From Caprella mutica (Eukaryota; Arthropoda; Malacostraca; Amphipoda; Caprellidae): a stretch of 64,000 nucleotides of DNA. The DNA lies in assembly GCA_947561585.1 (NCBI GenBank), contig CANNZV010001599.1:62001-126000 (forward strand). Direction: 5' to 3'. The notes beneath the pieces were generated by a model. The model was not told the DNA's origin. It saw only the letters and a list, made by a program, of their open reading frames with translations, and searched no databases. Both the position numbers and the translations under genes were made by a program. This document shows positions 7,068 to 63,973 of the stretch, in pieces; within the stretch, counting starts at the first letter, position 1, and the number at the start of each line of letters is the position of its first letter.

Positions 7068-7545
7068 TGTTCCACAATTACGATCACAGAACATTGAATA
7101 AGAAGAAGCTCAGATCGAACATGTACACATGGTGTACACAGTCGTAAAATTTCAACCAATCACGTCCATTGATCGCTGACGTCACTATGAACACTCTCTC
7201 AAAAACAGTTTGAGCGTGCATTCTACCTCAGCTCATTATCTTTGCTGGGAGTCATATCTTCCTACCAAATTATGTACACGATTATCTATATTCTATAGCC
7301 CAGCTACTAAGCAATAATAAACTAATCTTCTTTGCAACAAACACAAACTGACACCATTTCGGTTGTAATACGCATTCAAAATACGGACACAAACAGAACT
7401 GGTGAAACAAAGCCTCTGATTGGCTGAGTGGCTCTAGTTTAAGTGACGTCACTGTAAACGGCACTCAAGAGTAATATAATGGGATCTACACTTCTTCTTC
7501 TATTCAATGTTCTGTGATTATGACCACGTGTAAAAAATCATATTA
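7068..7545. mobile_element. MITE with CRE- and CCAAT-bearing inverted ends
   Basis: GATCACAGAACATTGAATAA at 7080 is mirrored by TTCAATGTTCTGTGATTATG at 7504. Just inside each end, TGACGTCAC (7179 and 7446 regions) and CCAATCA-type boxes (7156; inverted near 7417) occur in mirror orientation. The interior has only a 60-codon open frame of no recognisable family. The paired CRE-like and CCAAT-like motifs look like outward or inward promoter modules; that reading is inference. Confidence 0.65.
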
Positions 7546-20842: not shown

Positions 20843-22489
20843 CTAACCTAGAAAATACTTTTTGATATATACAGATGCCAAGCCAATCGCTACAGATATA
20901 GCAGAGAATTTCAATACATTCCATATTACAACCTCTCTAGTTCCCTCAATACTTCTCACCATCTTATCATTCAAAATAAACACCATTTTGCTCTCTTCAA
21001 TTAACTTTCCACGCGTTTCATCATCTAGATCAGCTGCCAAGGAATTCATTGCTGCATTTATCTTCTCTTTGATCTGGTAGACTGTAGCGCCATTTATCTC
21101 TGTCACTGCCAAGCCCTCGTAAGAACAATGTCTGCTGAATTTCAGTTTCTGGACCATGGCATGCTTTCTTCGGAGTATTTGTCCCCCTGAGAGCAGACCC
21201 ATGTAGAGGTGGTAGATGTAGGCAGACAGTAACACTGGGTCAGAGTGCTTTAATTCTTCCAAGTGTTTAATGTAGTTGCTAACACTTTCCCGAATAGTGT
21301 AAGACTCTTTCCAGTCTTTTCCAAGATAAAATAATAGGTCCTGAAAAATATCAAACATAAGTTATATTTCTGAGTAGCTATAGCATGGCTTGATTAATAT
21401 ACATATACTAAGTAAGACATTGCTATATTTATTTTTGAGCATCTTGATATAAAAAAAAAAGTTTAGATATTTATAAAGAAATCATATAATTCAACTGTAT
21501 CCAGACTTGTTTTAAAATGAAAAAATAGAGACTTTTTAACATGTTGGATACAAAGTGACACAATCATGTAGCTATATTACTGATAGACAAAGCAATACAA
21601 ATATATTTCTGAAATAATGTAAATTGAACAATATCAATATTTTAAACCTGCTTAAATTTTGACAATGTGTTCCCCATTTAAATCACTGTTTTTATCATAC
21701 AGAAGAGATAAATAAGTACAGTAAGAGATATTCAGCTCCTCTCGCTATCGTGGCACACGTGAAACAGAAGCAATAAAAAAACTTGGATATTTTGCAATGT
21801 AAGTGAGGCAACATATTGAATGAAAAAAGGTGGCTAACTGACTTTACCTGCAATCATACTCGTAACTTCTCATATTAGGTTTCAAAATCTCATAACTTTA
21901 CCTTCTCAAATAATTCAGTCCTCCTCATTTCTGCAACATCTAGAGAATGGAGAGTTGCCTCTTCTGTGACATCGAGTGTCTCTTCTAACCATTTGAAAAT
22001 CTCATAGAACACCAGCAAACCCTCTGCCCAAACCCTGCTGCTGGTTAGTGCTGAAAAATAGATACCATTCACAACAATTCATCATTGGAAATTTTTCAAT
22101 ATTTCACCTTCTGAAATTTGCTGAACAAAATTTACAGGAAGTTTTCATAATTTTACATCTGAATAAAAACAATGTAAATTTTTTCATTATTTATAAAAAC
22201 TGAATCATTTTCAAACTTCATCTGTAGCCTAATGCGACTTTAAAAAAAAAGTTGCATAAAATTTATTGGGGATAAAAGAACTCAAAAAAAGTGAAGCAGC
22301 TTCTGAAAATAGCTATTCTTCCTGGAATTTTGTTCCAAAATTTCAAATGCTGATGTTTTTGAGCATTGCACTCAATATAACATCACACTTACCAACCCCC
22401 AGCTTTGCATTGATGAGAGCATCACTCAGTGAGTGCACTTCTCTGGTTGCAATGCGCATTTGTTTGGTGAAGGGAATTGTATCAGTCAT
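20843..22489 (-). CDS. HO: heme oxygenase with C-terminal membrane anchor
   Basis: Three exons on the minus strand, 22489-22393, 22050-21902 and 21340-20843, join in frame with canonical splice sites to give 247 residues. The start MTDTIPFTKQMRIATREVHS contains the family motif TREVH with the proximal heme-ligand His at residue 19. RVWAEGLLVFYEIFKWLEE and YHLYMGLLSGGQILRRK are the other two signature segments. The last 25-30 residues (VIWNVLKFSAISVAIGLASV, then YIKKYFLG) form one tail anchor, as in microsomal heme oxygenases. The enzyme opens heme to biliverdin, CO and iron using electrons from cytochrome P450 reductase. The residue matching human HO-1 Asp140 is Leu131 here (MGLLSGGQ rather than GDLSGGQ). 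The gene converges on the E2 gene. Intron 1 is 342 bp and intron 2 is 561 bp. Confidence 0.95.
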
Positions 22490-24320: not shown

Positions 24321-24486
24321 AGGGCCAGTAGCATCGGCACTCTTACTCGCTCAGTCTATCACCCTCATCATATCAGCTCCAAACATAACCCGTACAGCTC
24401 GATTAAAATCAAAAATACTACTTTACTTCAATAAAAATTGTTTTATTCACAAGGCAGTATCTAAAAGACGGAAATGAATTAATAAT

Positions 24487-25850
24487 CGGGGTGAGCGTGC
24501 ACGCTCACGCCACTGTCTAAAAGCCGGAAAAAAGGAATTTGCGTGAACGCCCTCGCAACTAAGTTGACTAAAACATGGAAAAGTGGAATTTTATGGAATT
24601 TCTTGGCGTGCACGCTCACACAACTGTCTAAAACGCGGAAAAATTAAAATTATTAGCGTGCACGGTCACGCAACTGTCTAAAAGCCGGAGAAAAGGAATT
24701 TGCGTGCACGCACACGCAACTAAGTTGACTAAAACATGGAAAAGTGGAATTTTATGGAATTCCTTGGCGTGCACGCTCACGCAACTGTCTAAAACGCGGA
24801 AAAATTAAAATTATTGGCGTGCACGCTCACGCAACTGTCTAAAATGCGGAAAAATAAGAATTGGCGTGCACGCTCACGCATTGTCAAAAACGCAGAAAAT
24901 TAAAAAAAATTGGCGTGCACGCTCACGCAAATGTCTAAATTAAAATAATTGGCGTGCACGCTCACGCAAATGTCTGAATTAAAATAATTGTCGTGCACGC
25001 TCACGCAACTATCTAAAATGCAGGAAAAAAGAATTGCCGTCCACGCTCACGCAACTGTCAAAAACGCAGAAAAAAAATGGCGTGCACGCTCACGCAAATG
25101 TCTAAATTAAAATAATTGGCGTGCACGCTCACGCAACTGTCTAAATTGCGGAAATAAAAAAATCGGCGTGCACGCTCACCAATGTCTAAATTAAAATAAT
25201 TGGTGTGCATGCTTACGCAACTGTGTAAAATGCGGGAAAAAAGAATTGGCGTGCACGCTCACGTAACTGTCTAAAACGCAGAAAAATTAAAAAAATTGGC
25301 GTGCACGCTCACGCAAATGTCTAATTAAAAATAATTGACATGCACGCTCACGCAACTGTCTAAAATGCGGAAAAAAAGAATTGTCGTGCACGCTCGATCA
25401 CGTAACTGTCAAAAACGCAAAAAAAAAAGAAAAATGGCGTGCACGCTCACGCAAATGACAAAATTAAAATAATTGGCGTGCACGCTCACGTGAATGTCAA
25501 AAACGCAGAAAAATTAAAAGAATTGGCGTGCACGCTCACGTAACTGTCTAAAATACGGAAAAAAAGAATTGGCGTGCACGCTCACGTAACTGTCAAAAAC
25601 GCAGAAAAATTGAAAAAATTGGCGTGCACGCTCACGCAAATGACTAAATTAAAATAATTGGCGTGCACGCTCACGCAACTGTCTAAATACGGAAAAAAAG
25701 AATTGGCGTGCACGCTCAGGCAACTGTCTAAAATGCGGAAAAAATAATTGACGTGCACGCTCACGCAACTGTCTAAAATGCGGAAAAAAAGAATTGGCGT
25801 GCATGCTCACGCAACTGCGTAAATTAAAAAAATTGGCATGACGATATCAA
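24487..25850 (+). repeat. 46-bp tandem array, left arm of the foldback
   Basis: About 30 units with consensus core TTGGCGTGCACGCTCACGCA followed by ACTGTCTAAAATGCGG and an A-rich tail. Unit length varies from about 35 to 60 bp because of the A-rich tails. The core contains the self-complementary GCGTGCACGC; at its left edge a perfect GTGAGCGTGCACGCTCAC palindrome is present. It is locally CpG-rich in an AT-rich genome. Confidence 0.92.
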
Positions 25851-26905
25851 TTGTTCAGTTTACTATTGGATGGAATTATATGTTGGCGTGATAGAAACGT
25901 GATTCACGCTAGTTACTGAAAGATAACTACAAATATGAATTAGCGTGACAATATCAATTGCATAAAGTGATTTTGAATGAAAATAAGTGTGCTACGCGTA
26001 GCACAAACGTATACTACGCATTACGTAGTAAAAATAACTGAAAATACAAATTAGCGTGACGATATTAATTGTATAATATGATTTTGAACGGAATTATGTG
26101 CTAGCGGGATAAAAACGTACGTGCTGCACGCTAGTTAGTGAAAAGATAACATAAATTGTATAGTCTAATTGTATAGTTTAGTTTGGGATGGAATTGTGTG
26201 TTGGCGTGATAGATACGAGCGGTACGCTAATAGCGAAAAGATAACTGAAAATAGGAATTAGCGTGACGATATCATAGTTTAATTTTGAATGGTATTATGT
26301 ATTGGCGTGATAGAAACGTGCGTCACACAACTTAATACAACGATAATTCGAAATGTAAATTGGCGTGACGATATCAATTGTATAGTTTGCAATCGGATGG
26401 AATTATGTGTTGGCGTGATAGAAACATGCGTCACACAACTTAGTACAACGATAACTGAAATATATATTTGGTGTGGCGATATCAATTGCATAATTTTTTA
26501 TTGAATGGGGATTATGTATTGGCGTGATAGAAACGTGCTGCACGTTAGTTAGTGAAAAAATACTGAAAATATAAATAAGCATGATTTTATCACAGTTTAA
26601 TTGTTAATGGAATTATGTGTTGGCGTGATAGAAACGTGCGTCACGCAACTTAGTACAACGATAACTGAAAATGTAATTGACGTGACGATATCAATTGTTT
26701 AGTTTGCTATCTGAAGAAATTATGTGTTGCGTGACAGAAACGTGCGTCACACAACTTAGTACAACGATAATTGAAAATATAAATTGGCGTGACGATATTA
26801 ACTGTATAGTTCAGTGTTGGATTGGAATTATGTGTTGGCCTGTTAGGATGTTCGGTGCGCTTCTTAGTGAAAAGATAACAAAATTTATAAATTAACGTAA
26901 CAATA
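25851..26905 (+). repeat. about 108-bp tandem array, left arm of the foldback
   Basis: Roughly nine diverged units. Each contains TTGGCGTGATAGAAACGTG, a CGTCACACAACTTAGTACAA type segment, ATAACTGAAAAT and TGGCGTGACGATATCAATTG. Unit sequences differ by substitutions and small indels, so the array is older than the simple arrays next to it. Short open frames across it are repeat translations. Confidence 0.88.
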
Positions 26906-27230
26906 TCAACCTTACTAACGTAATATCGTTAACCTTACTAACATAATAGTGTTAACCTTACTAACGTAATATCGTTAACCTTACTAATATAATATTGTTA
27001 ATCTTACTAACTAATATCGCTCACCTTACTAACGTAATATGGTTCACCTTACCTACTAACGTATTATCGTTAACCTTACTAACGTTATAATTTTAACCTT
27101 ACTAACATAATATCATTAACCTTACTAACATAATATCATTAACCTTACTAACATAATATCGTTAACCTTACTAACTAATATCGTTAACCTTATACTAACG
27201 TAATATCGTTAACATTACTAACTATTATCG
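26906..27230 (+). repeat. about 24-bp tandem array in the foldback spacer
   Basis: About 13 units of the type AACCTTACTAACGTAATATC (plus GTT), with variants lacking three bases or with one change. It grades into the adjacent 33-bp array, which shares TTACTAACTAATATCGTT, so the second array probably arose from the first. Confidence 0.9.
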
Positions 27231-27548
27231 TTCTCAAGAAGTTCACCTTACTAATTAATATCGTTCTCAAGAAGTTCACCTTACTAACTAATATCGTTCT
27301 CAAGAAGTTCACCTTACTAACTAATATCGTTCTCATGAAGTTCACCTTACTAACTAATATCGTTCTCATGAAGTTCACCTTACTAACTAATATCGTTCTC
27401 ATGAAGTTCACCTTACTAACTAATATCGTTCTCATGAAGTTCACCTTACTAACTAATATCGTTCTCATGAAGTTCACCTTACTAACTAATATCGTTCTCA
27501 TGAAGTTCACCTTACTAACTAATATCGTTCTCATGAAGTTCACCTTAC
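27226..27548 (+). repeat. 33-bp tandem array in the foldback spacer
   Basis: About ten units made of GTTCTCATGAAGTTCACCTT followed by ACTAACTAATATC. The left units have AAGAAG and the right units ATGAAG, so homogenisation proceeded in blocks. Because 33 is a multiple of three and no stop occurs in some frames, both strands show repetitive open frames (11-residue repeats). These are by-products of the period rather than genes. Confidence 0.95.
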
Positions 27549-27557
27549 TAAAACCCG

Positions 27558-28094
27558 TATTACACTATGACGCTCGCCATGGAGGTCCCACAGTTTTGTT
27601 ATTTTTCTCTCTAACTCCGCACCTTTTCTCTCTAATAGCGAAAAATGTCATGGCGAGCGCCATGAAATTGTGATCGCTCACTGTGCGATAGAACCAACAC
27701 CGCCACCGTTTTAGAGGTGATGAAATTGTCTCTAAAGCCTGCTAAAAAGATTTGAAGTAGTGGAAAAAGTATTTTGTTTCATTTTACAAGTTATTTAAGA
27801 CTTTGTATGGCTAATGCGTGATGCAAAAAAAAGAATGAACGCGTCTGTGTAGTGTCCAGTTTTGCCATATAATCAATGGAATTAAACTTTTTAATATATA
27901 GGCATGGAATTGCTTCACACAACTATCCATAATATAATTAACTGAATATATATTCATGATGACATCGAATTTTATTGTTACAATTCATTTCATAATAAAT
28001 TTTTCAATTTAGTGTAATAGCAATTTTGAGTATGGTGAGCGCCAAATCTGCAGAGAGAGACAACACCGCCATGGCGAGCGCCATAGTGTAATAT
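27558..28094. mobile_element. MITE with TATTACACTATG...CGCTCGCCATGG ends
   Basis: The left end TATTACACTATGACGCTCGC and the right end GCGAGCGCCATAGTGTAATA are inverted. An extra inverted GTCATGGCGAGCGCCATG lies at 27647-27664. Non-coding, 537 bp, in the spacer of the foldback, immediately after the last 33-bp unit. Confidence 0.8.
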
Positions 28095-28099
28095 TGGCT

Positions 28100-28594
28100 T
28101 TACGTATTATATCGTCCAAAGGCAGTTCACCTTATTAATGCATGCTTGAACAATGTGAAGAAAATGGCAATGATTAGTTTTTCGTAAAAACATTAATATT
28201 TAACATTAATCTGTATAAATAATTTAACTTGAAGAAGTAAGTGTATCAGTAGCGTGCAATGATCATTAGTCATTAGTGCTGCCCAAGTGGAAGAAGAGTA
28301 GATGATAATTAGGGTTGTGACAATATGCATTTAAAATCATAATAGCATAGACGAAACGAATTGTAATGGTATCGAATACCGCTGATTTAGTACAATTCAA
28401 TACTCTTTATTTCTCTCCATCTATAATATTTTCAGAATCTATATGATTTTAAACGCATATTGTAACAACCCTAATGATAACTGTGCTGTTTTTGATAAGA
28501 GAATTAACAGTATCGCAGATACAAAATAAATGTGTTATTATTTCCATGCTCTCAGCATGATCACTTTAAGGGCAAAGACCACAGTTTAAAAACC
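28100..28594. other. unique part of the foldback spacer
   Basis: AT-rich sequence without ORF. It contains an inverted pair (TTAGGGTTGTGACAATATGC near 28311 and its complement GCATATTGTAACAACCCTAA near 28457), so a small hairpin element of about 165 bp is present. The same motif is found at window position 196-235. Confidence 0.5.
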
Positions 28595-29835
28595 TCTGAA
28601 ATATACAATTGATATTGTCACACTAATTTAAAATTTCTGTTATCTTTTCACTAAAAAAAGTGCCGCATGTTTCTATCACGCCAACATATAATTCCGTTAA
28701 AAATTAAACTATGATATCGTCACGCTAATTTATAATTTCTGTTATCTTTTCACTAAGCAGCGTACGCTGCACGTTTCTATCACGCCAACACATCATTCCA
28801 TCCGATATTAAACTATACAATTGTTATCGTCTCGCTAATTTATATTTTCAGTTATCGTTGTACTAAGTTACGTGACGCACGTTTCAATCACGCAAACACA
28901 TAATTCCATCCAATAACAAACTTTACAATTGATATCGTCACGCCAATTTATATTTTCAGTTATCATTGTACCAAGTTACGTGACGCACGTTTCTATCACG
29001 CCAACACATAATTCCATCCGATAATAAACTATACAATATTGATATCGTCACGCTAATTTACAATTTCTGTTATCTTTTCACTAAGCAGCATGCCGCACGT
29101 TTCTATCACGCCAACACATAATTCCATCCAATAACAAACTATACAATTGATATCGTCACGCTAATTAACAATTTCTGTTATCTTTTCACTAAGCAGCATG
29201 CCGCACGTTTCTATCACGCCAACACATAATTCCATCCGATATTAAACTATACAATTGATATCGTCACGCTAATTAACAATTTCTGTTATCTTTTCACTAA
29301 GCAGCATGCCACACGTTTCTATCACGCCAACACATAATTCCATCCGATAACAAACTATACAATTGATATCGTCACGCCAATTTATATTTTCAGTTATCGT
29401 TGTACTAAGTTACATGCCGCACGTTTCAATCACACCAACACATAATTCCATCCGATATTAAACTATACAATTGATATCGTCACGCTAATTAACAATTTCT
29501 GTTATCTTTTCACTAAGCAGCATGCCACACGTTTCTATCACGCCAACACATAATTCCATCCGATAACAAACTATACAATTGATATCGTCACGCCAATTTA
29601 TATTTTCAGTTATCGTTGTACTAAGTTACATGCCGCACGTTTCAATCACACCAACACATAATTCCATCCGATATTAAACTATACAATTGATATCGTAACG
29701 GCAATTTACATTTACAGTTATCGTTGTACTAAGTTGCGTGACGCACGTTTCTATCACGCCAACACATAATTCCATCCGATAATAAACTATACAATATTGA
29801 TATCGTCAAGCTAATTTATAATTTCTGAATCCTTC
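28595..29835 (-). repeat. about 108-bp tandem array, right arm of the foldback (inverted)
   Basis: About 11 units in the opposite orientation to the array at 25851-26905, with words such as TATCACGCCAACACATAATT and CAATTGATATCGTCACGCCA. Successive pairs of units alternate between two subtypes (CTTTTCACTAAGCAGCATGC and CGTTGTACTAAGTTACATGC), which shows higher-order amplification in this arm only. Confidence 0.9.
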
Positions 29836-29841
29836 TTTTCC

Positions 29842-30275
29842 AAATTTTAGACAGTTGCGTGAGCGTGCACGCCAATTTTTTCTGCGTCTTAGACAGCTGC
29901 ATGAGCGTGCACGCCAAAAAAATTTCATTTTTTGTGTTTAGACAGTTGCGTGAGCGTGCACGCAAATTCCTTTTTTTCCACAAATTAGACAGTTGCATGA
30001 GCGTGCACGCCAAGAACTTCCATTTTTTTGTGTTTTGAACAGTTGCGTGAGCGTCACGCAATTTCCTTTTTTTACGCATTTTAGACAGTTGCGTGAGCGT
30101 GCATGCCATTTTTTTTATATTTTTCCGCGTTTTAAACAGTTGCGTGAGCGTGCATGCAAATTCCTTTTTTCCGCAATTTAGAAAGTTGCTGAGTTGCATG
30201 AGCGTGCAAGCCATGAAATTCCATTTTTCCGTGTTTTAGTCAATAATAAGTGACGTGTGCGTGCACGCTCACGTT
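29842..30275 (-). repeat. 46-bp tandem array, right arm of the foldback (inverted)
   Basis: About nine units of TTAGACAGTTGCGTGAGCGT followed by GCACGCCAA, the reverse complement of the array at 24487-25850. This arm is about one third as long as the left one. A 132-codon minus-strand open frame here is repeat translation. Confidence 0.9.
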
Positions 30276-30299
30276 TTTTTCGCATTTTAGTTAGTCCCT

Positions 30300-31560
30300 A
30301 TTCACAATGCAAGAAAATTTAAAAATACTGATTATAAATAAATTCTATTTAAAAAAAATTTGTATACCACCAAGCCCAAGCAAGCAGCCACCAGCCCACC
30401 ACCAATACAAGACAACCACTCCACCGCACCATAGACCAATACAATAAGACTAAAACCAAAAACAGTTCTATTCTATTCATTTCACTTTATTCTATTCCAT
30501 CTAACAGCTAAGATTTACAACAAAAACAAAACATTCCTTTTCCTTCCATTCACAATACAAAACACTATTCTCTATTATAGAGTCTATACATACTGTCTAT
30601 TACTAGACAGCAGCAAGACCAATAATACTATTCAAAGAAGAAATTGACTTTGACTCACATTAGATAGATCACACTAGGTGATCTACAGGAGTCATAATGT
30701 GTCACATCTTCCAGCTAAATCTGTAACTGATTTAAACCATAGCTGCCTAACTCTAGCTTGGAACTTTTCTCATTGAATTTGATTTATTGTTTTTAAACTC
30801 CTTTCTCTTTTCCTCCATAGCGCTACAATATATTTCTTTGCTATACATGAATCACATCCTTGAACCTTCTTTCAGACTTTCAACAACAGAACCTCAGGCA
30901 AAGATGCTCCAACCTCAACTCATCATAATGGCTACATTCAACAATAAAATGAGAGAGAGTTTCTTCTTCTTGACTTCTTCTTCTTTTCCTGTTTAGGTGG
31001 CTGTCTCCACCTTAAAGCCAATGGGAAGCTGAACAGCTATCCGTGAAGCCTGGAAACTTCTCTTCCTGTTTTGAAACAAGTTATGGGGCACAAGTAGATA
31101 TTTATAGATTACGTCTTCAACAATGTCAATCTAAAATAATATATATTTTTTTTATAATCTATGACTATTTAGCTGAATAGCACTGTTTGCACCACAATGG
31201 TAATACTATCTTGCATTTAAATCATATGTGAACAGATGGTCTATTTCTATTTACCACTCCCATCTCAACATGCTACAATCAAAATAGATAGCTAAACATT
31301 TTATCATAGGTATAAATTAATAAAATTATACATTTTATCATAGCAATACATTATACATTTTATCATGAGAGAGAGTTTCCTCTTCATTCTGATCAGTAAT
31401 TAATTAGTGATATTAATTCCTAAACCACGGAATCGTACACATTGAAGTGGTTGCACGGGAACGCTAACCGAGGGACCGTACTTCGTACCTTGAAGGAACG
31501 TTCTTCGAGTTCTTCAGCACTGGAACGCACCATATATTAAATATATATATATATATATAT
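30300..31560. other. region without recognisable gene, with a TA dinucleotide run
   Basis: An A/C-rich stretch at 30360-30560 has no open frame. A short (TA)n run lies at about 31536-31560 immediately before a TTAA-flanked element. The 69-codon open frame at 30787-30996 has no recognisable features. Confidence 0.4.
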
Positions 31561-55800: not shown

Positions 55801-58800
55801 TTCAATTTGTCAGTGCATATAATGCCGAGACTCTCAAACAGTGTGTGGGTTGAAGTCTAAAAACCCATGTACGTGAAATCATCCTGTGACAGGTTGAATA
55901 ATCTAAAATGTGCCATTGAATAAATCTCTCACAATTAAATCTTGTATTCAATTTATAATTCTTCTAAGTTTCTACTAATATTAAACAATTACAATTATTG
56001 AAGCCATTTTTTATGTTAAAAAACATGTGAAATTCATTTTGTTTCACATATTTAGTGTATTAAAAATACATTATATTATAATTCAAACAAAGTACATCTT
56101 GTTCTTGAATGTTCATTTCCACTCAAAATTGTTAGGTTTTTCGTCATAAAATTCTTGATAAACAAATAGAGTTATCGAATTAGCATACACTACGTGCCAC
56201 ACTTTTGTGCAGATCACACATTTTGCTGTAAAATGAGTATAACTCATCCAAATCCATTGAAATTTTCAGTAGACACTTGTCCAATACAGATGTAACATGC
56301 CAAGAAATTTCAAATGCCTGTGATACTTATTGGTGAATTGATAAGGATTTTTCCTACTAAAAAGGTATAATTTCAGAGTACCACGCTCTTGTGCAGGAGG
56401 ATAAAAGTGCTTATATAACGTTCAAATTTTTTTTTATTTAACTCAAAAAGTGTTATTTATATGCAGGAGCTACAAGAGTGAAAATTTAATTACTTCGAAA
56501 ATACAAAATTAATGAAATTATAACAAAAACTGCATTTTAATTATTAATACCCAGTAAAACCTCCCCTCTTGTCAACGACCCTCAAAAGACGTCTATCCAT
56601 GGAGCTAGTCAACTTATTTATAGTATCTGGTGTTATCTTCTCACAGATTTTCTCAATTTCCCTCCAGAGGTCCTCCTTGTTTGTGAATTGACGTCCTCCC
56701 GCATACAACTTTTGTTTTAATATGGACCAGAGGTTTTCAATTGGATTTAAATCCGGTGAGAGGCTGGGCCAGACCATCAATTTATCATCCGAGAACTTAA
56801 GAGTTTCCAGGTAACTGCGGGTGGCTGTAGCTGCATGGGACGGGGCGTTATCATGCATGAAAATGATCTTTTTCTTGAGTGCAGCTGGTTGCCTCTTCAG
56901 CCACGGAACAAAATTGTTCTTCAAAAAGCTAATATAATTAGCTGACGTGATTTTAACGCCCTCTGGCACACGGAAGGGTCCCACCAATCTGTCTCCAAGT
57001 ATTCCAGCCCACATCATAACACCTCCTCCTCCTTGTTGACGACGAGTCCTCTGAGGACGAGAAGAGCCATGGGCAGTCCATGACTTTGCCCAACCGTCAG
57101 GGCCGTCAAGAGTCGCTCGCATCTCATCAGTGAAGAGCACAGTCTGGAAGTCTGTCTTGAGATACTTCTCAGCCCAAGAAACTCTTGCTTTCTTGTGTGA
57201 CTCCTTCAAAGGAGGCCTGATAACGGGTGAAACATGAGAAGCCATACTTCTCAAGATCCTGCAACGAGTGGTTTTGGGGACTTCCTCCATACCTGCACTC
57301 TTGAAAATTTCCCCAATTGTGGCAGTGGAGTTCCTCTTGAGTTCCCTCTTGATCCTGGACAAGTTCCGCCTGGTTGCTACTTTCCATTTACCCTTATCCT
57401 TACGAGTGACCTTCCTCATGGGATCATCAATAAATTTCTTCACTGTACGTGGGTCACGACCGATTTCAGTGGAAATAGACTTTGCATCATGTCCCTCAGC
57501 CAGCATGGATACTATCTTACTCTTTTCAGAGTCAGAAAGACACAGGCGGCGACTCATTTTCGATATTTAAAAATGTGAGGACAACAAACACAAGAGCGTA
57601 GCACGGTTAAATAATGTAAAAATTGATCATACTCGGTTAATAAACAACGGATTACCTTCAAATTTTATACATAACCTCCTAGTGAGGGTTTCCATATTAA
57701 CTGCAAATTTCATTTTATTTCATTGATTTTTACTCATTTTATTCCAAAATTTGTGATCTGCACAAAAGTGTGGCACGTAGTGTAGTCACCGCTTATTTTC
57801 TAAGCAGAAAACGATGTTGGTCTAGTACGAAACTACTAGGTACAGTCAGTTTCCTACCTAGACCAAGCCAACTTGGAACGTAACTCTGGTCTGCTACGAG
57901 GTTTTGCTGTTGCCGAATTAAATATCATTATATATGTTCTGCTTAAGAGCATCATTTCAAGTAACCAAGTTCCTTGAGACGGAACTGAGTTACTCATTTT
58001 CATCACGCCTCTTGCATTATTTTGGTAGTAATATATAAAAATCTGATAGAAATTTATATGAAACCCCCTTCCCTCAAGCTAATATGGTTAAATAAAATGG
58101 AACCCAGAGTTTGAGAGTGTTATATGATACCGCCTGCATTATACTCTATATGCATTGTATGATTTTTTTTTACTATCCGACGGTAAACTTTCTTTCTAAA
58201 ACACTGCTCTCATATTCTTTAAAAAGTTTTTTTTTCTGTTTCAGCGATTTGTCCTGATAACTGGATATTGTTTGGCAAACACTGCTATTTCATATCGCAT
58301 CCCACTGGTTACTCACAGTATACAGCAACAAATTATTGTAAAGCCAATTACAACAGCACTCTTATTTCCATAAACAGTGAAGAGGAGAACAAGTTCCTTT
58401 GGGGTGAGTGAACTAATATTTTTTATTTGATTTCATTCTAAAATCCAATTATTGATTAGGATGACTATAGTGCATAGGGGTGAATTTCTAAAATTATTTA
58501 AATCGAATGGCCGTTTGTCTAATACTGCGTATCCATGAAAAATAACGCGGGCGAAATCCTATTTGGTCATTACTTAGAGATGACTCAAGTCAATTGAAAT
58601 TTTATCCGGATCTTTCCCATTTGACCACCCCCTTCAAATTTAATTTAAATTAGTTTTTTCTTTGTGTACTTTTGTCCATAGAATCCAAAAATGATAACCG
58701 TTTTTTTTAGTAAAAACTAATACTTTTGAGATATGAAGTTTTGAAGTTATTTATTCCCTTTGCATTTCTGAAGGATTGAGAACTTTAAAAAAACCACTCG

Positions 58801-61800
58801 TTTTAACGCTTTTTGGCCAATTTTGGTAAAGATAGTCGTAATGTAGTTTAATGTATCTACTAGTTTTTTTACACTGCACACTTCTTTATTGATTAATTAT
58901 TGACCTTGTAGGGGGAAATGGGGGTAGCGCACCCCCCTTTTTACACATATATCAGTATTGAAGTAATAAATGGAAAATATCACGGAAACTGGACATATTC
59001 GAAATATGCATTTCGATAGGCGTGCTGCCCCCCGAGCCATCCTGCCAGGTCATTAATCAATTATGAAGTGTGCATTCCATAAACTAGTGGATACAACAAA
59101 ATACATAACAGTTTCAGGTAAAAAATCTTAATGTTTGAGTAATTTCAAAGAAAACATGAGTTTTTTCAAAGTTCTCAATCCTTCAGTAATACATAGGAAA
59201 TAAATAACTTTAAACCCTCATATTTAGAAAAGTATTAGTTTCTACAAAAAACGGTCATGATTTTCGGATTTTATTGACAAGATACATATAGAAAATAATT
59301 TAAATTAAATGTTGTTGGGGGTCGGCAAATGGAAAAAAATCTTTTTATCCTTAAAGACATGACAAAAAAACGAATATTCATAATAAGCCAGTTTATCTTA
59401 AAATTTACATTTAGAGCAAGTTTGTTTGGAATAGGCAACCCATTCATAGTTTTTGTTATTACTATTTGCGACAATTATTACAATTTGCGATGTTATTACA
59501 ATTGGCGACAATTATTACAATTCGCGATGTTATTACAATTGGCGACAATTATTACAATTCGCGACAATTATTACAATTCGCGACAATTATTACAATTCGC
59601 GACAATTATTACAATTCGCGACAATTATTACAATTCGCGACAATTATTACAATTCGCGACAATTATTACAATTCGCGACAATTATTACAATTCGCGACAA
59701 TTATTACAATTCGCGACAATTATTACAATTCGCGACAATTATTACAATTCGCGACAATTATTACAATTCGCGACAATTATTACAATTCGCGATGTTATTA
59801 CAATTCGCGACAATTATTACAATTCGCGACAATTATTACAATTCGCGACAATTATTACAATTCGCGACAATTATTACAATTCGCGACAATTATTACAATT
59901 CGCGACAATTATTACAATTCGCGATGTTATTACAATTGGCGACAATTATTACAATTCGCGACAATTATTACAATTCGCGACAATTATTACAATTTGCGAT
60001 GTTATTACAATTGGCGACAATTATTACAATTCGCGACAATTATTACAATTCGCGACAATTATTACAATTCGCGACAATTATTACAATTCGCGACAATTAT
60101 TACAATTCGCGACAATTATTACAATTCGCGATGTTATTACAATTGGCGACAATTATTACAATTCGCGACAATTATTACAATTCGCGATGTTATTACAATT
60201 GGCGACAATTATTACAATTCGCGACAATTATTACAATTCGCGACAATTATTACAATTCGCGACAATTATTACAATTCGCGACAATTATTACAATTCGCGA
60301 CAATTATTACAATTCGCGACAATTATTACAATTCGCGACAATTATTACAATTCGCGACAATTATTACAATTCGCGACAATTATTACAATTCGCGACAATT
60401 ATTACAATTCGCGACAATTATTACAATTCGCGATGTTATTACAATTCGCGACAATTATTACAATTCGCGACAATTATTACAATTCGCGACAATTATTACA
60501 ATTCGCGACAATTATTACAATTCGCGACAATTATTACAATTCGCGACAATTATTACAATTCGCGACAATTATTACAATTCGCGACAATTATTACAATTCG
60601 CGACAATTATTACAATTCGCGATGTTATTACAATTGGCGACAATTATTACAATTCGCGACAATTATTACAATTCGCGATGTTATTACAATTGGCGACAAT
60701 TATTACAATTCGCGACAATTATTACAATTCGCGACAATTATTACAATTCGCGACAATTATTACAATTCGCGACAATTATTACAATTCGCGACAATTATTA
60801 CAATTCGCAGACTTAGAAACTGGAGACCATTTTTTGAGGCGATTATTTCACGGTAACTACAATAAACATCAAAATTATTGTTCGGATGTGGTTATTAGAA
60901 GCAATTGGTTCTGAAATTAGTCGTTATCATGAAAGAAGAAATATTAGCAGTGACTATAAGTCTTTATATAATATACATAGTCTATATATAATATACATAG
61001 TTCTCTAGCAATTTCATTCACGACTTTCAACACGGTTTATTATTTCTATCTTCTGTTCGAGAGATATTTTTCTCACTTTTGAACAATTATTTTGATCTTT
61101 ATGTGTTATTTCTTTCTTGAAGTCATAATGAAAAGCTGCAAATAAGATGATTAAAAATCTCATCAGTATAGGTAATTTAAACTTAGAGTGCTAATCAACA
61201 TGTTCAAATTTAGGGTAAGTTCCGTGTTATCACATGGTTCCATATTTTCGGCCTCGTTAAATCTATATATAATAATAATTCTTTAACTTTTATTTCAATT
61301 GGTATCATGCCTTTAGGTAACATGTTACCGGTTAGAATAGAAGTTAATTGATAATTATTATATTTTAATTTCTAAAGTGTCCGAAAATGTAGAAACAACC
61401 GAAAACTTGGAACATATACCCTACTGCCGAAAATATTCCACTGAACACAAAATTACAGTTTGTTCAGTGTACCACAATAATTATATAAATCAAAGTATCT
61501 TTTACCTATTCCCCTATATTGGGTGTGAGTTAAAGCCATATTGGAATTTTTTTTTTAATGCATTCACTACTTTGAACTTTAATCAAAGAGTATGAACTAT
61601 AATTCTGGCAACAAACACTGGAATATGTAGGCTTAGTCGAACCCTTGAAACAAGTTTCTTTTATTACATTTAATAGAAAATGAAACATTCAATTAAAGAA
61701 TAACAATTATAATAGTTATTTGTGACATACCTCGGTTATATTACTATTTGTAATAAGACTGAGTCGTGATTTCGTAATAAAAGTGATGTAGAACGGAATT

Positions 61801-63973
61801 GGAATTCGTTTTTTTGCACCTGGGTCCCACCGTCTATTCCAACACCTACTCATTAACAAAATACTCAACACACACATCCACGACTCGTTTAAAAAATGGC
61901 TTGCCAATTATCTCTCAGGCCGCTCTGGCAAAACACTCTACAACGGCAAGTCCTGCAGAACACGACACTACACTGATGGAGTACCGCAGGGCTCCGTTCT
62001 CTCACCTACTCTCTTCAATTTATACCTCCACGACCTCCCCACGCCAACAAACACCTTTGTACACACCCTTACATACGCGGATGATGTCACCATCATGTCG
62101 CAACATCCCAAACACGAGACCGCAGCCAACAATTTACAAACATACATCTACTCACTAGAAAACTGGCTAGAAACAAACAGACTAAAGGTCTCCGCAAACA
62201 AATCCTCCCTCACACTCATATCCCCCCATACTCGTGAATACAATACCCATCCAAACATAACACTTAACAACACTCCCCTTCCCATCAACAACACGCCTAA
62301 AATCCTTGGAATCACACTTGACCGCGGCATGACGTTTAAACACCACATTAACGACACCAACAACAGAGCCAAAAACAGACTGAACGTCATGCGCGCCCTC
62401 ACTCACACTACTTACGGACACTCCAAGGAAGACACAACAACACTATACAAACAGTTCATTAGACCCATCCTCACATACGCGCACACAGCTTGGTCACCTG
62501 ATACAGCCAACACACACCTACACAAACTCCAGCGTACACAAAACACTGCACTACGGATTGCCACCGGCTGCACACAAACAACACCCACAACACACCTCCA
62601 TGAGGAGACACGAGTCCTTCCGCTCGCTACACACATGGATATGAGGGGTACACACTTCTACACCTCCACACTAAGCCCCTCTCATCCATTACACTACATG
62701 CAAATTGAGCGAAGGACTCCACGAAACATTCACCTTACACCAGCCACACACTACAGAAACATCTTTAATACACTCCCAGACACCCCACCCAACACTTCAC
62801 TACAACGACATATACACACCACACTCACAGACAGAGCAATTTCCTCCTTCCCACCTAACTCTCTTCTAGGAGTTAGGCCTCCCCCTATCGACTCCAGTGA
62901 GGTTCACCTCTCGCGTCGTGACAGGGTAACCCTGTCACGTCTTCGATGTGGACATCACCCTTCTCTCCCTTCTTACAAACACAGAATTGGGAGGGCGGAC
63001 TCGGATCTGTGTGAGTACTGCTCCACGGATCCGGGGACAATCTCCCACATTCTCACACAATGTCCAACACTACAACAACATCGGACCACACACAACACAC
63101 ATTCACTGGAGCACCTATGGACCCGCCCTCAGGAAGTCATTGCCTTCCTGAGGGATATCGGGTTCACTTAGGCCCATACCCCCCACACGTGTCTCGGGTG
63201 GCTTCTCCCGAGGCGCGTTCACTCGGTCGCCCCCTGCTCCTGAGGGTCGGGGGGGGGGGGGCTAAACAACAACAACAACAACCATTATTGTAAGAGTATG
63301 CACTGCAGTTTCATATCATAAAAGGAATTAATAATTTATTTGAACTGAGTACACATAAACTTGCTCACTATATAAATTTTAAAATACATTGGCATATTAT
63401 TGATATTTGTATTTTTGTCTATAAGGATAAAATTTCCATTGATTTCAGTCATCTCTAAATATTTTCCAAATGATTCAATTGATTTTACATTTGTAATTTT
63501 TACATGGGTCATCGTAATGGACAAATGACTATTTAAAAATGAAAACTTTGCCTTCTTATTGTCACCCTATTTAGATCTAATAATCATGTGTTAAAAAAAT
63601 TAATTAATACAGAAAACATTGGATATGATACCTATAGTACGTGGATCGGCCTCTTTAAAGAGAGTGGCTATGGTGTGCCCTATGAATGGACTGACGGGTC
63701 AGAGTTGAACTACACAAATTGGTACACTAACGATAACGAACCAGACTATACTGGGAGTTCTGAGTTTTGCGTTAAGGTATTGTCAAAATCAAATAGTGTC
63801 CACTTTAGCTACAAATTAAGAGCTAAATCAGAAATAACTATTTAATATTAAAAACATTAATTATATTAATGAAACTTCTTATATCACACAGATGTATATA
63901 GAATCATCACAAGGAGAATGGTCTGACTATGAATGTACACACGGCTACAGATTTGCCTGTGAAACTGCTTATG
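49811..63973 (+). CDS. secreted C-type lectin domain protein (3' end beyond window)
   Basis: Five exons join in frame with GT-AG junctions and matching phases: 49811-49874, 50545-50580, 58245-58403, 63613-63776 and 63892-63973. The product begins MGNIILVVICILQIFILQTT, a signal peptide, then a short acidic linker (DIKYDTTTEYPD). A C-type lectin-like domain follows: SICPDNWILFGKHCYFIS, YCKANYNSTLISINSEEE, WIGLF, WYTNDNEPDYTG, SSEFCVK, GEWSDYECTHGYRFACE. The conserved disulfide cysteines and the WIGL core are present. The Ca-site tripeptide is EPD and the WND equivalent is WSD. The reading continues past a donor at 63974. Introns of 7.7 kb and 5.2 kb are packed with transposons. In insects such proteins recognise microbial or self glycans; the ligand here is unknown. 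Confidence 0.9.
50545..50580 (+). CDS. lectin gene exon 2 (short linker)
   Basis: A 36-base phase 1-1 exon with acceptor TTTCAG and donor GTAAGT, encoding DIKYDTTTEYPD. Being symmetrical, it could be skipped without frame change. Confidence 0.7.
50888..52092. mobile_element. palindromic Tc1/mariner-like element with about 400-bp arms
   Basis: CAGGGTATCCCCCAAAAAA at 50890 is mirrored by TTTTTTGGGGACACCCTG ending at 52090, flanked by TA both sides. The arms are inverse copies for about 400 bp. Both contain the start of a transposase frame (left arm MALRKWSERDNEV at 51072) followed by a GTAAG-like donor. The centre carries a minus-strand remnant with DEAVFYMNGEVINQN, similar to the first-D region of some mariner-like transposases. 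Not autonomous. It lies in lectin intron 2. Confidence 0.83.
51325..51564 (-). pseudogene. transposase fragment inside the palindromic element
   Basis: A 79-codon frame includes FVNWFLQRHFRFVEDIII, then GDEAVFYMNGEVINQNIRQN. The pattern (S/G)DEAxFxxNG-xNxQNxR is familiar from insect mariner-like transposases around the first catalytic aspartate. The remaining catalytic residues are absent. Confidence 0.6.
52150..52510. mobile_element. MITE-like repeat with TTCGGTCT/AGACCGAA ends
   Basis: AATTTCGGTCTGGAAAATTT at the left and GAGACCGAATTTTCCCAGA at the right are roughly inverted, with a second TTTTGGTCTCGG inside. Non-coding. Target duplication not identified. Confidence 0.5.
52666..52714 (+). 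other. exon-like cysteine-rich segment in lectin intron 2
   Basis: Between an acceptor AAACAG and a donor GTGAGT lie 49 bases that in one frame read CKFINGGCGCMKSKLC, which looks EGF-like. Its length and phase do not fit between lectin exons 2 and 3 without a frame change, so it is either a decayed or alternative exon or chance. Confidence 0.25.
53516..54085. mobile_element. TTAA-type MITE with AGGGGCAGTTCAGTCAA ends
   Basis: AGGGGCAGTTCAGTCAAAAT at 53520 is mirrored by ATTGACTGAACTGCCCCT ending at 54081. Flanks are TTAG and TTAA. GTGGCGCCATCTGTGGA and GTGGCGCCATCTGTAGG occur as a direct repeat inside. Length 562 bp, non-coding, in lectin intron 2. Confidence 0.75.
54335..54672 (+). repeat. 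dispersed repeat, copy 2 (partner at 42365-42700)
   Basis: Direct copy of the repeat at 42365-42700; see there for shared words. This copy lacks a few bases near the TTTCAAAA region. Confidence 0.75.
55105..55690. repeat. foldback repeat of about 0.58 kb
   Basis: GTTTACAAAACGTATAATAA, ACATGCATAGTTAATATAAA and TGAGTGCTTTCTCAG on the left are mirrored on the right by CTGAGAAAGCATTCA, TAAATTAACCAATCATGTTT and TTATAAACACGGAC. Outer words (CATTTGGGTC / GACACAAATG) are also inverted. No coding potential. Confidence 0.7.
55715..55860 (+). pseudogene. Tigger/CENP-B-type HTH fragment
   Basis: The plus strand reads KKRTSIEMKLTILKNFHNGM followed by KNRDIAKLFNLSV, a good match to the N-terminal DNA-binding helix-turn-helix of Tigger/pogo transposases (KLxII..xxxGxKxxDIAKxFxLS). 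It ends at a stop shortly afterwards. No other part of the transposase is nearby. Confidence 0.55.
56186..57784 (-). mobile_element. complete Tc1-type DD37E transposon
   Basis: The element is 1595 bp (56188-57782), flanked by TA duplications. Its ends begin CACTACGTGCCACACTTTTG and are identical for at least 29 bp on both sides, with weaker inverted similarity for about 30 bp more. One uninterrupted transposase gene lies on the minus strand. Perfect ends, intact gene and clear TA duplication indicate recent activity. It lies in antisense orientation in intron 2 of the lectin gene. Confidence 0.97.
56544..57557 (-). CDS. Tc1-type transposase, DD37E
   Basis: An uninterrupted 337-codon frame starts MSRRLCLSDSEKSKIVSMLA. 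Residues 1-110 hold two helix-turn-helix modules (LAEGHDAKSISTEIGRDPRT near 20-40; STATIGEIFKSAGMEEVPKT near 77-95) that bind the terminal repeats. The catalytic triad is D144 in FTDEM, D236 in MHDNAPSH and E274 in SPDLNPIENLW, with 37 residues between the last two, so DD37E rather than the DD34E of classical Tc1. A glycine-rich box QQGGGGVMMWAG lies at 175-185. The enzyme would cut and paste the element into TA sites. Length is normal for the superfamily, and no stop, frameshift or missing catalytic residue is seen. The degenerate relative at 44587-45473 shows older activity of the family. Confidence 0.95.
   Translation of the reverse strand: MSRRLCLSDSEKSKIVSMLAEGHDAKSISTEIGRDPRTVKKFIDDPMRKVTRKDKGKWKVATRRNLSRIKRELKRNSTATIGEIFKSAGMEEVPKTTRCRILRSMASHVSPVIRPPLKESHKKARVSWAEKYLKTDFQTVLFTDEMRATLDGPDGWAKSWTAHGSSRPQRTRRQQGGGGVMMWAGILGDRLVGPFRVPEGVKITSANYISFLKNNFVPWLKRQPAALKKKIIFMHDNAPSHAATATRSYLETLKFSDDKLMVWPSLSPDLNPIENLWSILKQKLYAGGRQFTNKEDLWREIEKICEKITPDTINKLTSSMDRRLLRVVDKRGGFTGY
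58245..58403 (+). CDS. lectin gene exon 3 (first half of CTLD)
   Basis: Acceptor TTTCAG, donor GTGAGT. Encodes SICPDNWILFGKHCYFIS through INSEEENKFLW, containing the first three conserved cysteines of a long-form C-type lectin-like domain. Confidence 0.93.
58670..59280. repeat. foldback repeat of about 0.6 kb in lectin intron 3
   Basis: Left AGTAAAAACTAATACTTTTG, GAAGTTATTTATTCCCTTTG and GAAGGATTGAGAACTTT are mirrored on the right by AAAGTTCTCAATCCTTCAG, AGGAAATAAATAACTTTAAA and AAAAGTATTAGTTTCTAC. The central part contains GC-rich GTAGCGCACCCCCC and GTGCTGCCCCCCGAG words. Non-coding. Confidence 0.75.
59456..60808 (+). repeat. 19-bp minisatellite (GACAATTATTACAATTCGC), about 70 units
   Basis: The 19-bp unit is interspersed with an 18-bp variant GATGTTATTACAATTGGC at irregular intervals. 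Because 19 is not a multiple of three, the array cycles through all frames, yet none of the three plus frames meets a stop for about 1.3 kb. The apparent 467-495-residue proteins are the same 19-residue repeat and are not evidence of genes. Its near-perfect homogeneity points to recent amplification. It lies in lectin intron 3. Confidence 0.97.
60930..61800. other. intron sequence without recognisable feature
   Basis: AT-rich, no open frame of note. A short direct repeat TATATAATATACATAGT occurs at 60964-61002. Confidence 0.4.
61807..63171 (+). pseudogene. reverse transcriptase C-terminal part of a jockey/I-like LINE ORF2
   Basis: The frame (phase of 62095) reads HRLFQHLLINKILNTHIHDS, then WLANYLSGRSGKTLYNG, the RT block DGVPQGSVLSPTLFNLYLHD and the catalytic YADDVTI (62074-62094). 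The thumb region LGITLDRGMTFKHHI follows, and then TLYKQFIRPILTYAHTAW. The C-terminal part contains RLRCGHHPSLPSYKHRIGRA and the zinc-knuckle-like CEYCSTDPGTISHILTQCP, ending WTRPQEVIAFLRDIGFT. The layout fits non-LTR elements of the jockey/I/R1 group. The endonuclease and the first RT blocks are missing, so it is dead on arrival although this part is uninterrupted. Confidence 0.9.
61807..63290 (+). mobile_element. 5'-truncated non-LTR retrotransposon
   Basis: A continuous frame begins abruptly inside the reverse transcriptase domain and runs to a stop at 63171. A short 3' untranslated region follows, then a G-run, and the element ends in CAACAACAACAACAACAA. Loss of the 5' end and a simple-repeat tail are typical of target-primed insertion. 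The coding strand is very poor in G and rich in A and C, unlike its surroundings. No target duplication was identified. Confidence 0.88.
63613..63776 (+). CDS. lectin gene exon 4 (second part of CTLD)
   Basis: Acceptor AATACAG, donor GTATTG. Encodes ENIGYDTYSTWIGLF through NDNEPDYTGSSEFCVK, including the WIGL core and the EPD Ca-site motif. A nearer acceptor at 63574 would run into a stop, which decides the exon start. Confidence 0.92.
63892..63973 (+). CDS. lectin gene exon 5 (end of CTLD)
   Basis: Acceptor CACACAG, donor GTAAGT. Encodes MYIESSQGEWSDYECTHGYR, then FACETAYG, with the last two conserved cysteines of the domain. The frame continues into an exon beyond the window. Confidence 0.92.

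Follow-up and report, generated by a model that had tools for sequence, protein, structure and literature searches.

A large, probably Mutator-like foldback family with mirror-ordered tandem arrays in the amphipod Caprella mutica

How do two tandem arrays come to lie in one order on the left of a locus and, as reverse complements, in the opposite order on its right? The question is raised by a stretch of Caprella mutica DNA (GenBank assembly GCA_947561585.1, contig CANNZV010001599.1, positions 62,001 to 126,000 of the forward strand), the whole 64,000 nucleotides of which are referred to here as the window. A sequence-only reading had described the arrangement as a giant foldback, and proposed either a new foldback family or a site at which mirror-image satellites had arisen by inversion and then expanded separately. 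The kind of transposon to which the element belongs is a known one, and the family is new. It is very probably one older, non-autonomous copy of a large Mutator-like foldback family, most likely of the Rehavkus group.

Structure, copies and insertion sites

The window element is 5,846 bp long, begins with GGCAGTATCTAAAA and ends with TTTTAGTTAGTCCC, and a perfect 9-bp target duplication, TATTCACAA, lies directly outside both ends. Its earlier placement at 24440..30290 was right as to the element, with the exact ends (24453-30298) about ten bases away. Comparison of the region with itself gives several long reverse-complement matches, such as that between 25360-26908 and 28712-30290 (76% identity over 1,624 columns), and Tandem Repeats Finder places the outer array before the inner on the left and, in reverse complement, the inner before the outer on the right, confirming that the arrays are ordered in mirror image. 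The outer-array motif GCGTGCACGCTCACGC, with up to three mismatches, occurs 29 times on the plus strand and nine times on the minus strand, every time within the element, against a mean of 0.015 in 200 shuffles of the element (two-base blocks, one strand).

The left outer array, thought to be about three times as long as the right, has 28 motif matches over 1,384 bp, compared with 8 over 442 bp. The two-unit pattern noticed in the right inner array was also borne out: in a tree of 108-bp-type units of 85-125 bases, from which all others were dropped, its units 2 and 4, and likewise 3 and 5, are separated by zero-length branches. That such patterns are absent from the left inner array had to be rejected, as both types of 108-bp unit are present on both arms and the left arm has a period of 318 bp (1.9 copies by Tandem Repeats Finder). 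The spacer does contain the miniature inverted-repeat transposable element (MITE) that had been noted there, which is common to the window copy, L027 and L026 (labels of this form denote loci elsewhere in the genome).

Further copies were sought in the window's own assembly (903 Mb in 7,200 contigs). A 35-base pattern of the left terminus is matched 145 times when up to three mismatches are allowed, 81 times forward and 64 in reverse, and some of these may be single loci assembled and counted twice; 73 are exact, and the reversed control has none. The window's own variant of the terminus is found in 8 of the best 100 of these 145, itself included. A DNA search with 24400-25100, in which 40 of 481 candidates were scored, gave 146 matches, and 24 of the first 30 start at query base 53 or 54, which is the terminus.

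The 20 distinct copies compared are the window copy and 19 that were fetched as the strongest matches of the DNA search, not as a random sample; L011 was omitted as a repeat of L010, the two having the appearance of a single locus present twice in the assembly. In 12 copies both ends could be located, five stretches being extended for the purpose. The ends of L015, L016, L018, L020, L022, L023, L026 and L028 are incomplete, running past the stretch or contig or having no recognised end. Five of the 18 left ends (L012, L015, L020, L024 and L025) are identical over their first 198 bases. The family is large and partly recent, and the structure has been mobile in the past.

Target duplications record this mobility at unrelated sites, and with them the search that the sequence-only reading had proposed for other mirror-ordered copies has been answered. 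The 9-bp duplication is perfect in nine of the 12 two-ended copies (the window copy, L010, L013, L024, L019, L012, L025, L014 and L009) and matches in eight of nine letters in two (L021 and L027); the remaining copy, L017, has a degenerate right end and no duplication. Copies without a coding spacer are included, L013, in which the inner arrays abut, having nine of nine letters and L021, which has outer arrays only, eight of nine. For 11 copies (not L017) the flanks were joined with one copy of the target and searched against the window and the fetched loci. Matches crossed the junction for four of them. Three insertions have aligned empty sites, all without a gap at the junction: L013 against window positions of about 7078-7332, L019 against L024, and L014 against L013. 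The L013 site differs in one of nine target letters and has a 6-base gap farther from the junction; the junction matches of the fourth copy, L024, fall in a short repeat. Window positions 7078-7332, the empty counterpart of the L013 site, are themselves a dispersed repeat.

Recent copies have three arrays on each side: an outer array with units mostly of 39-50 bp, an array of the 15-bp unit AAATATTTTTGACTC, and the inner 108-bp array. The 15-bp unit has no match in the window copy or L027. Outer arrays stand on both sides in all 12 two-ended copies, with never fewer than 12 motif matches on the left or four on the right, and inner arrays stand on both sides, in mirror order with the outer ones, in ten (L021 has none and L027 only the right one). 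Motif counts put the larger outer array on the left in 12 of 12 copies, the larger 15-bp array on the right in all ten that have it (in L021 by just 4 matches to 1), and the larger inner array on the right in all 11 that have one. Having a common ancestry, these copies do not count as independent trials; the right-arm spans of L009, L017, L021 and L025, inflated by stray matches, were left out. Because the direction is the same in every copy measured, the left-right inequality is an inherited one rather than one made at the window locus.

Near their tips, most ends carry a long palindrome. Of 18 left ends, 15 have a perfect 24-bp palindrome at positions 36-59; of 12 right ends, ten have a perfect one of 28 bp that starts at position 35 or 36. 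Shorter palindromes remain in the window copy (18 bp on the left, 10 bp on the right) and in L027 (20 and 22 bp), and L022 has lost its left palindrome. The left form, GGCG...CGCC, and the right form, GTGACG...CGTCAC, have a 20-bp core in common and differ in their outer letters, each remaining perfectly self-complementary.

Transposase frames and classification

The window copy has no MULE (Mutator-like element), C48 or PHD frame, and its only open frames of at least 120 residues are in the arrays. Decayed coding sequence is instead found in L019, a copy of 11,648 bp with the target duplication CAGAAAATG, in which open pieces lie between the inner arrays. From right to left these match MULE (PF10551, E 1.1e-6), the Ulp1-type peptidase C48 (PF02902, 8.7e-9) and PHD (PF00628, 2.5e-6), with MULE and PHD in separate pieces of the decayed gene. 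The MULE frame, at 1770-2732 of L019, starts inside the edge of the 108-bp inner array, so that array and coding sequence abut. L019 is not a working source of transposase, because its MULE match is a half-domain and the frame begins in the array edge. Of the other copies, L028 has a PHD match above the cut-off and a C48 match just below it, and L016 has a PHD match; PHD stands beside C48 in both L019 and L028. Seven frames of these three copies were scanned at E values up to 0.1; none matches a THAP or P-element domain, and FLYWCH had no match among them.

Elsewhere in the genome, L031 is a distant relative, with 34% identity to the L019 MULE piece and an interrupted frame in the order MULE, C48, PHD (PHD below the cut-off); its C48-PHD part agrees with that of L019 at 28% (62 of 225 columns). 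Besides the frame itself, a search of the genome with the L019 MULE frame returned three matches at 70-75% that span 48-67 residues, weaker ones that lie mostly at 25-50%, and many short ones confined to the start of the frame (as far as about residue 33), a part that is inner-array sequence. A near-identical transposase was not among the 124 candidates scored out of 2,486, which sets a lower bound. Two transposase protein searches found a single match each: a MULE protein (37% over 53% of the query; 897 candidates) and a fungal C48 protein (34% over 24%; the 7,993 candidates sharing most words were scored).

The decayed MULE-C48-PHD frames most likely point to the Rehavkus group of Mutator-like elements rather than to the P superfamily. 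Rehavkus is described as combining a PHD finger and a minisatellite with duplications of 9 bp, and its hosts are given as insect and annelid in the text and as Arthropoda and Annelida in a table (PMC6446971); Rehavkus-1_TC, from Tribolium, has tandem repeats in its inverted termini (PMC10218199). The window family has 9-bp duplications, a MULE-related transposase, a PHD finger and minisatellite arrays in its inverted termini, and its host falls within the same range, a heme oxygenase neighbour in the window matching amphipod and decapod proteins. It is unlike Rehavkus-1_TC in its two or three arrays nested in mirror order, where the latter has one 164-bp terminal repeat, and in the long palindrome at most ends and the crustacean host. 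The published descriptions of Rehavkus consulted for comparison make no mention of a C48 domain. Among the titles and abstract openings listed for Rehavkus, foldback elements and MULEs, none describes the present family; this is no proof of absence, and Repbase was outside that search.

Several observations weigh against the reading as a Rehavkus-like family moved by such a transposase. In L019 the MULE match is limited to the latter half of the domain, no copy proved to contain an uninterrupted transposase, and the placement is based on features matched by description. The palindromes of the window copy are damaged and the left one of L022 is lost; moreover, as the palindromes are inherited within one family, their many copies amount to few independent observations.

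An alternative placement is as a MULE of the Phantom/Foldback type, as in Tm1 of root-knot nematodes, which has composite ends of tandem units whose number varies between ends and between copies, mostly 9-bp duplications, and a MULE-type, Phantom-like transposase (PMC3169594). Such an origin is unlikely, since a PHD finger and a minisatellite are Rehavkus traits (PMC6446971) and PHD matches occur in L019, L028 and L016, and since Rehavkus-1_TC, too, is described with inverted termini that hold tandem repeats (PMC10218199); Tm1 also differs in its units of about 14 bp, one to nine per end, and in its transposase-bearing element of 2,593 bp (PMC3169594). The P-superfamily transposase suggested by the sequence-only reading did not materialise. 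Galileo, of that superfamily, does have similar long, internally repetitive foldback ends (PMC3688188), but the seven frames without a THAP or P-element match, the decayed MULE, C48 and PHD frames enclosed in another copy, and the 9-bp duplications make a Galileo-like element very improbable, and it was rejected on the domain matches of the L019, L028 and L016 frames. Tetris of Drosophila virilis, provisionally placed in Mutator, is comparable: it is a foldback that is non-autonomous, has tandem repeats in its interior and shows duplications of 8-10 bp. It is unlike the window family in its repeats of about 220 bp, which seeded satellite arrays, and its authors did not find a transposase copy (PMC4079207).

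Two explanations would make the window arrangement a matter of this locus only, and both have a negligible probability. Inversion of two satellites followed by separate expansion would suit arms of different length, yet it gives no account of copies at unrelated sites. It was rejected on the mirror order recurring at other loci, the target duplications, that of the window copy being perfect, and an inherited inequality whose direction never changes among the copies measured, be it in the outer array (12 of 12) or the inner (11 of 11). An assembly error joining two loci is no better placed: tandem arrays are prone to such errors, and L010 and L011 exemplify a locus apparently assembled twice, but identical 9-bp duplications lie exactly at the predicted ends and independent copies occur at unrelated sites, on which grounds it too was rejected. 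Array lengths in the assembly may still be wrong.

The window in detail

The features of the element are listed in Table 1.

Table 1. Position of the foldback element and its parts in the window
Feature	Position	Strand
Left target duplication TATTCACAA, 9 bp	24444..24452	
Whole element, 5,846 bp	24453..30298	+
Left outer array, units of about 39-65 bp, 28 motif matches	about 24489..25838	+
Left subterminal palindrome, 18 bp still perfect of the family's 24 bp	24491..24508	
Left inner array, 108-bp units	about 25838..26908	+
Spacer tandem array, 23-bp unit	26908..27222	
Spacer tandem array, 33-bp unit	27208..27551	
MITE, 532 bp, TA on either side; related sequence in L026 and L027	27560..28091	
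Right inner array, 108-bp units	28602..29830	-
Right outer array, 8 motif matches	about 29846..30276	-
Right target duplication TATTCACAA, 9 bp	30299..30307	

A second short inverted-repeat element, with ends like TTAGGGTTGTGACAATATGC, lies in the spacer at 28305-28478, and L026 and L027 have matching sequence, the inverted hit included. Outside the foldback, the heme oxygenase frame (PF01126), a neighbouring exon, occupies 20846-21361 on the minus strand; its best match is at 65%, and the best matches to named species, the amphipod Hyalella azteca and decapods, are at about 56% (among the best 120 of 210 matches), which makes a malacostracan crustacean the likely host. A 340-residue open frame at 56547-57566, also on the minus strand, encodes a transposase of Tc1/mariner type (DDE_3), and another of 459 residues at 61792-63168 has a reverse transcriptase domain (PF00078). 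Between them, at 59456-60808, about 72 copies of the 19-bp unit TTATTACAATTCGCGACAA form a tandem array, within which one strand is open in three overlapping frames, of 468-505 residues.

Origin and possible role of the arms

The units of the arms were aligned with one another and with the termini, and their best local scores were set against 1,000 dinucleotide-preserving shuffles. The left terminus aligns with the outer unit at a score of 48 (shuffle maximum 38), the right terminus with the outer unit at 62 (48), and the two termini with each other at 64 (35). The outer unit, compared with the 108-bp inner unit over two periods, scores 61 (41), and in this alignment the inner unit corresponds to a diverged pair of outer units. 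No shuffle reached the score of terminus against outer unit or of outer against inner unit. From these shuffle-tested scores, therefore, the best reading of the arms is that they repeat the element's own terminus, with the inner array as a more diverged layer, and the inner array is probably older than the outer.

The unit tree groups 108-bp units by type, mixing arms and copies. In L012, L013, L017 and L024 the first inner units of the left arms and those of the right arms form sister groups, with the first units of the window outside them. From these sister groups it follows that the mirror order is older than these copies.

The self-complementary core, which the sequence-only reading had suggested might bind a protein dimer, is a candidate transposase-dimer site, and perfect palindromes at most ends fit this role. 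As single strands the two palindromes are predicted to form hairpins of -12.7 and -14.3 kcal/mol, matched by none of 200 shuffles; the hairpin of an array unit, at -4.7 kcal/mol, is matched by 22 of 200. A transposase supplied in trans would bind the terminal palindrome as a dimer, and partial copies of this site along the arrays would also bind it, gathering the enzyme at the ends. Through unequal exchange, slippage or the repair of gaps the arrays would lengthen or shorten, leading to arm lengths that differ between copies, while the outermost units would stay fixed because cleavage needs them. More tentatively, the palindromes may be kept for their symmetry itself, the transposase or a cruciform reading dyad symmetry over plain sequence, and the partial sites of the kilobase arrays may form a graded field by which it is decided what copies move; this is less likely than not.

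The arrays could instead be passive by-products of slippage and recombination, with the transposase using only the outermost part of the ends. This is a serious minority possibility, in keeping with array lengths that vary greatly among copies and with L021, which has no inner array, and L027, which has no left one, both having near-perfect target duplications. Against it, the outer motif has no fewer than 12 matches on the left and four on the right in any of the 12 two-ended copies, and the repeats of Galileo, whose transposase belongs to a different superfamily, do carry additional sites for transposase binding, of which the nearest is about 70 bp away from the end (PMC3688188).

The family provides whole copies together with their target duplications and empty sites, unusually clear material on which the origin of foldback arrays, and their role, can be tested. 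In this family it can be asked whether the ends were built by repeating the terminus, whether the constant inequality of left and right is functional, and whether the palindromes set the binding of the transposase.

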